From NCBI RefSeq assembly GCF_011299095.1, contig NZ_CP049889.1:947501-1011500 (forward strand): a DNA stretch of 64,000 bases, in the 5' to 3' direction. Below the pieces are notes generated by a model, which saw nothing but the letters and a program-made list of their open reading frames with translations, did not search any database and was not told where the DNA came from. Source of the DNA: Jeotgalibaca porci (lineage in GTDB: Bacteria > Bacillota > Bacilli > Lactobacillales > Aerococcaceae). Positions 13,715 to 62,260 of the stretch are shown piece by piece. A program made the translations under genes and the position numbers. How positions within the stretch are numbered: position 1 is the stretch's first letter; the number at the start of each line of letters is the position of its first letter.

Positions 13715-14831
13715 TTAATCTTCATCATTCGTAATATTCATTTTCAAGAATGCGTCGATAAATGGATCTAAATCTCCATCCATAACCGATTGCACATTTC
13801 CTGTTTCATGATTCGTACGATGATCTTTCACCATGGAGTAAGGGTGGAAAACGTAAGAACGAATTTGAGAACCCCAGCCAATTTCTTTTTGTTCGCCACG
13901 AATAGCAGCCAGTTCACTTTCGCGTTCTTCTTCTTGTTTTTGGAAAAGTTTTGCTTTCAACATCCCCATTGCCGTGTCACGGTTTTGGAACTGCGACCGT
14001 TGCGCCTGACTTTGGACAACAATACCCGTTGGAATATGCGTAATACGAATCGCCGAAGAGGTCTTGTTAATATGCTGACCACCCGCCCCACTTGCACGGT
14101 ATGTATCTACACGAATATCATCTAGACTCACTTCAATATCAGCATTATCCGCTGCGATTTCAGGCATCACATCAATGGAACAGAAGGATGTGTGTCTTCT
14201 TCCAGCAGAATCGAATGGCGATATACGCACGAGACGATGAACGCCACGTTCTGACCGTAGATTTCCATATGCATTCAAGCCTTTGATTAAGAGCGTCACA
14301 CTCTTAATCCCTGCTTCATCACCTGCTTGGTAATCCAACGTTTCAATGGTATAGCCTTTTTTATCCGCCCAGCGCGTGAACATCCGATGCAATAAACTTC
14401 CCCAGTCTTGTGATTCGGTTCCGCCGGCTCCTGGATGAATTTCTAAAATGGCATTGTTTTTGTCATGTGGTCCATTCAGAAGCATGGTTAATTCGTATTC
14501 ATTTAAGGCAGCCTCAAACTCTGCTACATTTCCCGCCAACTCTTCTTCGAATTCAGATTCAGGATCTTCCTTAACGAACTCATACATCACTTCTAGTTCT
14601 TCATACATCTCTTTCAACTTATTGAATGTTTCAAACACACTCTTTAATTGATTGGATGCATTAATCACTTCTTGTGCTGCATGTGAGTCTTCCCAAAAAC
14701 TAGGGTCCAGCATTTGATCTTCATATTCGGCAATATCCGCTTCCAGTGCCTCTAAGTCAAAGAGACCTCCCAAAGCTTTGGATTTTTTCTTCGGATGTTT
14801 CTAACAATACTTTTACTTCACTTAATTCCAT
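13715..14831 (-). CDS. prfB: Peptide chain release factor 2, programmed +1 frameshift
   Basis: RF2 reads UAA and UGA stops. The gene starts at ATG 14831 (AGGAGG upstream), runs 24 codons to an in-frame TGA at 14759-14757, and continues in the +1 frame from GAC at 14758 to the stop at 13715. The product is about 371 residues. The downstream frame carries the RF2 tripeptide SPF ([11 protein letters not shown]) and the catalytic GGQ loop ([16 protein letters not shown]). Reading only the second frame would need a TTG start and lose the N-terminal helix. secA lies directly upstream, the order usual in Firmicutes. Confidence 0.96.
14756..14771 (-). other. prfB: RF2 autoregulatory frameshift site
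   Basis: Minus-strand order is GGGAGG (internal Shine-Dalgarno, 14766-14771), TCT, then the slippery CTT TGA C. The 3-base gap between the SD-like element and CTT, and the UGA-C context, match the known RF2 recoding signal: low RF2 slows decoding of UGA and lets the ribosome slip +1. Confidence 0.95.
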
Positions 14832-48148: not shown

Positions 48149-48259
48149 TCAAAAAAGCAGACCCAAAGTCACTTCACATAAAGGCGCGGCGGCTTGCAGC
48201 CACCTTGCGCTTTTATGTTCCAGTGATTCGGGTCTTAACGCTTTTTTTCACACTCTCTT
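48149..48259 (-). repeat. Large folded 3' element, copy 1
   Basis: A 111-bp imperfect palindrome. Outer arms AAAAAAGC.GACCC and GGGTC...GCTTTTTTT, middle arms with CACATAAA / TTTATGT, and an inner GGCTTGCAGCC hairpin are visible. It is repeated almost unchanged 121 bp further on. Read on the minus strand it ends in TTTTTT after the outer stem, as a terminator would. Confidence 0.9.
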
Positions 48260-48269
48260 TTAAACCTGT

Positions 48270-48381
48270 TCAAAAAAGCAGACCCAAAGTCACTTCACAT
48301 AAAAAGCGCGGTGGCTTGTTGCCACCTTGCGCTTTTATGTTCCAGTGATTCGGGTCTTAACGCTTTTTTTCACACTCTCTT
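48270..48381 (-). repeat. Large folded 3' element, copy 2, abutting proS stop
   Basis: The tandem copy of 48149-48259 differs by a few bases and a 1-base indel, mostly in the inner hairpin (GTGGCTTGTTGCCAC), and the changes keep the pairing. On the minus strand it begins directly at the proS stop (TAAGAGAGTGTGAAAAAAA), so it forms the proS 3' untranslated region. Confidence 0.9.
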
Positions 48382-51208: not shown

Positions 51209-51240
51209 AAGGGTCGGGAATTTTTCCGGCCCTCTTTTTG
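51209..51240 (+). terminator. Terminator of usp
   Basis: AGGG.CGGGAATTTTTCCGGCCCT stem followed by CTTTTTG. Confidence 0.85.
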
Positions 51241-61332: not shown

Positions 61333-61962
61333 ATGAATAAAAACTTAACAATTCGACTGATTTATACCGTATTAGGAATTATTTTAATTGGATTTGCAGT
61401 AGGCTTTGTACGCATTGCCGCATTGGGAACCGATCCCTTCACTACTATCAATCTAGGGTTTACCGCTGCTACAGGCTATCGCTATGGTCTGACAAGTATG
61501 TTTACGAATATAGTTGCCACTATCTTCATTTTATTCGTCGACAGACGTCTCATTGGTTTAGGTTCTCTCTTAAACCTTCTGTTTGTAGGAAATATCTCTG
61601 ACATTTTTGTAAATATTTTTACCGATACTTTCGGCTCGGCTGAATCGCTTTGGCTAAAAACTACGTTTGCTGCTTTAGGAATGGTTATTTTGGCAATTGG
61701 TGCCGCGATGAATATTGTTGCAAACTTGGGAGTTTCTCCCTATGATGCTTTGCCTCTCGTAGCAGAAACACTTGGAAAAGGAAAAATACGTTTCCAATAT
61801 GCGCGTGTCGTACTGGATTTTACAGCAGTAGGTATTGGCTTCTTATTAGGAGCGCAAGTTGGTGTCATGACGCTTGTAACGGCCTTCTTAATGGGTCCGT
61901 TACTACAATTTTTCCGCGTCAGATTGTTTACGTTACTTCAAAATTTAGAAAGAGCAATTTAG
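61333..61962 (+). CDS. YczE/YyaS/YitT family integral membrane protein
   Basis: The 209-residue membrane protein has about five helices and the YczE pattern GFAVGFVRIAALGTDPFTTINLG and NLGVSPYDALPLVAE. Function is unknown. It has an AGGAGG site. Its 3' region carries copy 3 of a large folded repeat and a terminator. Confidence 0.88.
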   Translation: MNKNLTIRLIYTVLGIILIGFAVGFVRIAALGTDPFTTINLGFTAATGYRYGLTSMFTNIVATIFILFVDRRLIGLGSLLNLLFVGNISDIFVNIFTDTFGSAESLWLKTTFAALGMVILAIGAAMNIVANLGVSPYDALPLVAETLGKGKIRFQYARVVLDFTAVGIGFLLGAQVGVMTLVTAFLMGPLLQFFRVRLFTLLQNLERAI

Positions 61963-61971
61963 CAAAAAGAA

Positions 61972-62150
61972 GAGAGTGGGAAAAAAGGCGTTTAGATCCG
62001 AATCACTGGAGCGAATAAGCACAGGATGGGTGAAGATCATCCGCGCATTATTTCAGGAGCACAGTGGGCTGAAGCCCAAGTGTATCATTTTTGTAAGCTG
62101 CTAAAGCAGCAACAACCATGACAAAGTGGCTATCGGATCTGCCTTTTTAA
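61972..62150 (+). repeat. Large folded 3' element, copy 3 (with three inner hairpins)
   Basis: GAGAGTGGGAAAAAAGGCG and following bases match the minus strand of 48270-48381, including GATCCGAATCACTGGA at one arm and AAGTGGCTATCGGATCTGCC at the other. Between the arms lie three further hairpins: GGATG..CATCC (about 62023-62042), GGGCTGAAGCCC (62067-62078) and GCTGCTAAAGCAGC (62097-62110). This resembles a multi-branched RNA. It starts 9 bases after the stop of the YczE-like gene, in sense orientation. Confidence 0.8.
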
Positions 62151-62183
62151 GCACGTTTACGCCACAATTATTCGTTAATAGTA

Positions 62184-62217
62184 GAGGGGCTGGGAGTTTT
62201 TTCCCAGCCCCTTCTTT
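62184..62217 (+). terminator. Terminator after the YczE-like gene and repeat
   Basis: GGGGCTGGGA(7)TCCCAGCCCC followed by TTCTTT. It is separate from and downstream of the large folded element. Confidence 0.85.
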
Positions 62218-62260
62218 ATTACGCTTGAAAAGAAGTATTTACAGACTTTCAAAAAAAATA

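Follow-up and report, generated by a model that had tools for sequence, protein, structure and literature searches.

A probable non-autonomous mobile repeat with a multi-branch fold at gene 3' ends in Jeotgalibaca porci and other Lactobacillales

BOX elements occur in Streptococcus pneumoniae and S. suis, and TIR and target duplications are reported for them in the available part of the source (PMC3049150). As far as that part goes, the repeat family presented here resembles them in being small, intergenic and modular, with outer modules and optional inner hairpin modules that fold largely alone, and in combining an RNA-like fold with a MITE-like spread; it differs in the lack of duplication, the signs of insertion into terminator hairpins and the terminator at its right end. 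The bcr1 repeats of the Bacillus cereus group (167 nt) and Efa-1 of Enterococcus faecalis (163 nt) are also dispersed intergenic families with predicted common folds, and Efa-1 is described as two adjacent stem-loops, like module D of the present family; this comparison is by description and not by sequence, and terminator-hairpin targets are not mentioned for either repeat in the accessible text (PMC2267715). Extragenic palindromes are targets as well for the insertion sequences IS1397, ISKpn1 and IS621, which, according to the available section of PMC1525189, are autonomous and use REP palindromes, a repeat of defined sequence, whereas the flanks observed here are common in complementarity and not in sequence. 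SPRITE is another mobile-looking, terminator-like repeat for which target duplication is not established, but it consists of a single 18-bp duplex with a U-rich tract, in contrast to the multi-stem frame with nested modules of the present family. Elements of the IS200/IS605 family have hairpin ends, do not duplicate their target and move as single-stranded DNA, and group IIC introns are much larger ribozymes. The latter resemble the present family as mobile structured RNAs with a terminator or attC stem-loop at the insertion site (PMC7923331, available part), whereas the element studied here measures 0.1-0.3 kb and its window copy contains no known RNA according to Rfam.

The window, that is, the whole stretch of 64,000 nucleotides of Jeotgalibaca porci DNA that was analysed, contains a long-form copy of this family. 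Its ends were set by comparison with copies in its own genome (G000) and in a related genome (G001). The copy starts at 61972, 9 nt 3' of the TAG stop codon (61960-61962) of a 209-aa ORF, which confirms the position directly after a stop codon given in the preliminary description. The full repeated unit does not stop at 62150, the end given in the preliminary description, but extends over about 61972-62211 (240 bp, terminator hairpin included), of which 61972-62150 is the larger part, and nothing of 80 aa or more in the ORF list overlaps it. Its parts are as follows, where double changes are pairs changed on both sides.

61972-62211, plus strand: whole element, long form (frame, hairpin C, module D and right terminal hairpin), 240 bp
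61963-61971, plus strand: left host flank CAAAAAGAA, complementary to the right flank
61972-61986, plus strand: left terminal sequence GAGAGTGGGAAAAAA, an imperfect inverted repeat of the right end
61982-61989 with 62141-62148, plus strand: stem P1, AAAAAGGC with GCCTTTTT; double changes in 2 of 8 pairs, 100% of cells paired in 30 copies
61995-62001 with 62133-62139, plus strand: stem P2, GATCCGA with TCGGATC; double changes in 5 of 7 pairs (2 of 7 in long forms)
62004-62007 with 62125-62128, plus strand: stem P3, which closes the junction, CACT with AGTG; double changes in 2 of 4 pairs (0 in long forms)
62011-62057, plus strand: hairpin C; double changes in 8 of 14 pairs in short forms, none in 12 long forms
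62059-62124, plus strand: inserted module D, 66 nt, with hairpins H1 (62060-62082) and H2 (62085-62121); absent from short forms
62184-62213, plus strand: right terminal hairpin, intrinsic-terminator-like, 13 pairs, 34 nt after 62150
62197-62211, plus strand: right terminal sequence TTTTTTCCCAGCCCC, from copy comparison
62212-62219, plus strand: right host flank TTCTTTAT, interpreted as the T tract and right arm of a host terminator that the element interrupts

The left and right ends show 12/15 identity in the G001 and window type and 7/11 in the type of genome G166. The left-end pattern AGAGTGGGAMAAA matched 37 times in G001 and 15 times in the own genome, while the control gave 0 and 0. A G+C-rich hairpin followed by a T run, as in intrinsic terminators, is found at 62184-62213, at the right end only and not over the whole element. 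The preliminary description had placed a terminator there, 34 nt past 62150, and regarded it as separate; the position stands, but not the separateness, since in the own and one related genome the repeated unit runs on through the terminator to ...CCCAGCCCC, so that the terminator is part of the element. This right terminal hairpin moves along with the element and varies among element subfamilies in G001. The flanks of the window copy, AAAAAGAA (left) and TTCTTTAT (right), are read as the putative arms of an interrupted host terminator; their complementarity score is 6, which is not significant for a single copy with a flank so rich in A.

Two further copies, both short forms, lie in tandem after proS.

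48250-48379, minus strand: short-form copy 1 after proS (G000:C1:995750-995879, minus), 124.2 bits
48129-48257, minus strand: short-form copy 2 after proS, in tandem with copy 1 (G000:C1:995629-995757, minus), 111.1 bits

The left arm GATCCGAATCACTGGA of the long form has four window matches at up to 3 mismatches against 0.43 expected, and four were reached in 0 of 100 shuffles. They are the arm itself, the two proS copies (48219-48234 and 48341-48356, minus strand, 1 mismatch) and a match at 14406 with 3 mismatches. For the right arm AGTGGCTATCGGATC, no match to the proS copies was found at up to 3 mismatches, the two matches obtained in the window being at chance level. The proS copies carry AGTGACTTTGGGTC instead, which pairs with their own GACCC arm; therefore, what is common to the copies is the pairing and not the letters of the right arm. 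The earlier statement that the outer arms are shared with proS thus holds for the left arm (with 1 mismatch), while for the right arm it holds for the pairing and not for the sequence.

The region 61960-62215 folds with -90.5 kcal/mol (z -5.8), which is unusually stable. The preliminary description had proposed a candidate multi-branch RNA, to be examined by covariation; for the frame, covariation agrees with such a fold, and the multi-branch fold is well supported. In a MAFFT alignment of frame plus hairpin C (A2, 30 of the 33 frames left after removal of near-identical ones, L038, L040 and L048 being excluded as short or divergent), 17 of 33 pairs change on both sides and the covariation score is 0.286 versus 0.126 for shuffled data. 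Among cross-family frame hits (A3, n = 54, 52 distinct rows), all 33 pairs are double-changed, with a score of 0.767 versus 0.191 shuffled in an alignment that was built by the model and so leans toward the model fold; sliding the pairing partners by 1-3 columns lowered the score to 0.067-0.127. Module D (A1, 19 of 23 sequences, four near-identical ones excluded) has 11 of 22 pairs double-changed and a score of 0.303 versus 0.118 shuffled, the count of further pair types being not above shuffles (99/500). For the whole long form, the values are 8 of 51 pairs and 0.113 versus 0.062 in 12 copies, again with further pair types not above shuffles (288/500); this alignment (A5) holds 12 of 18 long forms, six copies with module B having been excluded as misaligned, and 3 of the 21 wanted loci gave no sequence.

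The frame also shows polarity. G.T occupies 37 cells and A.C 4 in A2, and 74 versus 22 in the model-fitted A3, whereas the signal is absent in module D (4 versus 5). This large excess of G.T over A.C suggests, at the level of sequence comparison, that the frame is probably active as a single strand of given polarity. The window copy itself is somewhat decayed, with two module-D pairings broken (CACA/AGTG and UCAUU/CAUGA); its minimum-energy fold on the plus strand departs from the family fold, while that of the complementary strand matches it.

The element is modular, consisting of an outer frame with one hairpin (C) and optional small hairpin modules, B and D, at fixed points. Short forms (about 172 bp in G001) are frame plus hairpin C, and long forms add module D, 66 nt with two hairpins, at the 3' foot of C; some of them also hold the module B of about 52 nt between GAATC and ACTGG. 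Module D has a constant CAA end and also stands alone in many genomes, in tRNA operons and in the 23S-5S rRNA spacer. At E 0.001 or better, matches occur in 73 of the 395 genomes of the order, representing 18 of 80 genera. It runs antisense to the tRNA genes in the inspected tRNA-operon loci, where the tRNA-Met/tRNA-Asp spacer is a frequent site and the Ser/Met, Met/Met, Glu/Val and Ser/Asp spacers are further ones. The loci in tRNA operons belong to two families, f1 and f6 (L091, L092, L093, L110, L107, L072, L075, L079, L081, L084-L087 and L047). In G001, one D lies between the 23S and 5S rRNA genes, immediately before 5S (L083, G001:C1:1421427, plus strand), and a further match is at G001:C1:2866232 on the minus strand; a similar match adjoins 5S in G376 (L101). 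Genome G144 has 41 matches resembling D, of which some form tandem arrays of about 80 bp (L094, L109, L115, L120; G144:C21:61855-62168), and many genomes of family f4 have mostly one D-like structured element each at E 1e-3 to 1e-6 (L097, L103, L104, L105, genus g24).

The window copy had been described as a third copy, but by copy number the element is not rare. A 201-base query gave 43 BLAST pieces at E 0.01 in the own genome, and the short-form covariance model, at E 1e-4 or better, matched 28 times; two of these matches are re-hits on the opposite strand, which leaves about 26 places. The five other genomes of the genus gave 54 matches (G001, including at least eight opposite-strand re-hits), 7 (G002), 17 (G003), 15 (G004) and 0 (G005). 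Over the order, the frame model matched 101 of 395 genomes in 33 of 80 genera; no genome of family f4, which we take to be the streptococci, is among these 101. In the further families f3, f7, f8 and f9 the frame was found at E 1e-6 in 14 of 15 genomes, the single f7 genome giving no match. In family f8, G184 has 91 frame matches and G135 has 62; several of these are repeated in tandem every 124 bp or so (e.g., G184:C1:1618687-1619066). Among named genomes, the exact pattern was found only in Jeotgalibaca caeni and Desemzia incerta, in four stretches. Rfam gave 0 matches in the whole window, the best low-threshold match reaching 18.5 bits versus 60 required, and on 14 loci from other genomes it recognised known neighbouring RNAs only. 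Phages, plasmids and viral contigs as carriers gave no match in a search made partly by exact patterns only. No earlier description of the family was found in literature searches that included sequence strings, although one outside the searched literature could have been missed. The family is widespread and, apparently, undescribed, and the earlier suggestion of an undescribed mobile-repeat family is supported in that the repeat is dispersed and structured, with no description in the literature searched and no Rfam match in the window.

All 64 copies found by pattern in the collected loci lie next to the 3' end of a gene, at a distance of up to about 300 nt by automatic ORF calls, and none lies between two gene starts. 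Converging genes surround 27 of them, 14 are in sense tandem and 10 in antisense tandem contexts, and 13 have only one neighbour called; a sense stop precedes 48 of the 64. Sense orientation after a stop had been taken as a sign of a transcribed ncRNA, which is not sustained by 14 sense versus 10 antisense copies in directional contexts.

Complementarity between the two flanks of the same copy was then compared with permuted flanks. In G001 (n = 31) the observed value was reached in 4 of 20,000 permutations (3 of 20,000 in a repeat run), and for 39 copies from four genomes permuted together in 14 of 20,000. The eight copies of G166 gave 495 and 473 of 20,000 in two runs. All automatically defined ends (G001, G166 and G000, n = 44) gave 1 of 20,000; adding hand-set ends gave 0 of 20,000 (n = 55), a set that includes 11 hand-typed end motifs (four in G001, L204 and six in G000), with L204 added after its flanks had been noticed and L008 skipped because its ends were not found. 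In one set, 15 of 40 loci were scored, the others being without clear automatic ends. No excess was seen for the five copies of G000 with automatic ends (26 versus 26.4; 11,717/20,000) or for seven copies from other genomes (32 versus 34.2; 17,786/20,000), and it was weak for 11 copies of G000 with hand-set ends (648/20,000). Examples of flank pairs are TTAGCAA/TTGCTAA (L166), GAAACAAAAA/TTTTTGTTTC (L323) and AAAAAGAAGT/ACTTCTTTTTT (L204). Direct repeats at the ends showed no excess either, with a mean of 0.49 versus 0.52 permuted in 39 copies (13,392/20,000), and thus no target duplication. The flank signal comes from G001 and G166. Together with the absence of direct repeats, it is taken to reflect putative insertion into terminator hairpins with no duplication, for which G001 gives the best case.

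Dispersal is clearest in G166, where eight copies are on average 99.8% identical (99.2-100%) over 131 nt, 21 of 28 pairs being identical, while their 120-nt flanks have on average 29% (left) and 25% (right) identity, the level of unrelated DNA. Common neighbour proteins (E 1e-8) were found for 17 locus pairs between G000 (40 loci) and G001 (36 loci), with 27-58% identity in the long matches and higher values in some short ones. Between G000 and G004 there are four such pairs, with one protein at 76% (L010/L182), and between G001 and G004 seven, with two proteins at 86% (L155/L186) and 99.6% (L157/L060); the remaining genome comparisons gave one or two pairs each. From these neighbourhoods, a few sites may be shared between species or transferred together, and most are not. 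At the window locus, no empty site was seen in five relatives, which are only about 76% identical there and in which the orthologous place was matched by the downstream gene only; movement is therefore inferred from dispersal. An autonomous partner with the same left end was sought by exact pattern in G001, the one genome fully checked, and all 37 matches were element copies or internally deleted remnants. As to the possibility that the copies are just derivatives of an insertion sequence, none with the same left end was seen by exact pattern in G001. Replication direction was also considered, with the origin assumed at contig position 1; among the matches listed, the counts were 13 versus 30 in G001 (46 of 54 matches, p 0.014) and 32 versus 26 in G184 (71 of 91, p 0.51). 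The test is void, since the first 2.5 kb of G001 has no 150-aa ORF and that of G184 has no recognised origin-marker gene.

Altogether, the element is probably a structured, non-autonomous mobile repeat with a terminator of its own and with terminator hairpins as insertion sites, and membership in a mobile-repeat family is preferred to a free ncRNA. The folded element would be recognised by an enzyme acting in trans, which would place it in the hairpin of an intrinsic terminator already present, with no duplication of the target. Termination would be restored by the right hairpin of the element and by pairing of the element ends with the host arms, so that insertion would cost little, and the fold would work as a single strand of given polarity, either RNA or single-stranded DNA. 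A functional 3' UTR or small RNA under selection at every site, such as an element for stability or processing, is an unlikely alternative, even though it would fit the order-wide conserved fold with compensatory changes, the far larger number of G.T than A.C on one strand, the location at gene 3' ends and the presence of module D in the tRNA-Met/tRNA-Asp spacer of several genomes (families f1 and f6) and in 23S-5S spacers. Against it are the 14 sense and 10 antisense copies in directional contexts, the sites that mostly differ among species, the absence of matches in G005 of the same genus and the near-identical copies with unrelated flanks in G166. The strong covariation exceeds the need of a dead mobile repeat, which leaves room for a host function. 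Slightly less probable is a plain MITE, left over after internal deletion from a known insertion sequence with inverted ends. The element is indeed short and without ORF, with imperfect inverted ends (12/15) and many copies, but a target duplication was tested and is absent, an exact-pattern search of G001 gave no element sharing its left end, and the fold is conserved far beyond the need of a relic. Since the target duplication usual in MITEs is absent, the family is not filed as one; by analogy, it might be said to work like a MITE and to be built like a BOX element.

The two remaining alternatives, which name a source of the enzyme, are both very improbable. A bacterial SINE-like retroelement would have its folded RNA copied at terminators by, for instance, the reverse transcriptase of group II introns, some of which aim at terminator hairpins. 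This would agree with the single-strand polarity and the terminator setting, and RVT_1 was found in 12 of the 15 genomes tested. It was not found in the other three, G005, G086 and G151, of which G086 and G151 have at least eight and at least six frame matches, and a reverse transcriptase does not fit well as the source. For group IIC introns, the site includes the stem-loop of a terminator or of attC, but insertion is downstream of the stem-loop, or after or into it for the attC type, as far as the available part of PMC7923331 describes; site position alone is therefore not decisive. An IS200/IS605-type non-autonomous element, moved as single-stranded DNA by a Y1 transposase, would explain the hairpin ends, the lack of target duplication and the polarity signal, as well as the two hairpins and constant CAA end of module D. 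However, Y1_Tnp was not found in 4 of 14 D-bearing draft genomes (G058, G093, G101 and G036), each with at least 12 D matches, and the D model around 30 of 36 Y1 matches gave two weak hits, the better one inside a different repeat; this source does not fit well either, although in drafts a missing match does not prove that the gene is lacking.

More tentatively, and with doubt prevailing, the family may belong to an order-wide mobile class in which a folded single strand (RNA or DNA) moves, lands in the hairpins of intrinsic terminators and accepts smaller mobile hairpin modules at fixed points. If so, an RNA-like fold would evolve through module insertion. If the probable reading of a repeat that inserts into terminators is right, small mobile elements of one class would find safe landing sites there, and many gene 3' ends of lactic acid bacteria would carry decaying or active copies, which could alter termination, mRNA stability and small-RNA annotation. 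On the strength of its covariation, the fold could be proposed as a new Rfam entry, and where new copies would land is a testable prediction of the flank rule.

Several rearranged copies were noted by eye. L015 and L018 look like deletions between similar B and D hairpins. In L011, L017 and L022, copies are truncated or fused near GGATCC with other sequence, which in L011 and L017 contains TGTCATTAACTTAAG or a close form; these fusions are possibly nested insertions. An IS or IS remnant seems to lie within the right terminal hairpin of the element in L013 and to adjoin it in L038. A separate dispersed repeat (about GACTAGGGGATTATAAGTTCAGCC or parts of it) was seen by eye in G001 and G004; it is found in L202 (1101-1350, minus-strand reading), where it carries a B-like hairpin module, and in the flanks of L147, L157, L053, L060 and L189. 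Finally, a simple terminator of the same GGGTCGGGA/TCCGGCCC type is present without the frame at 51210-51233 of the window, and it may be an ordinary terminator or a remnant of the element.
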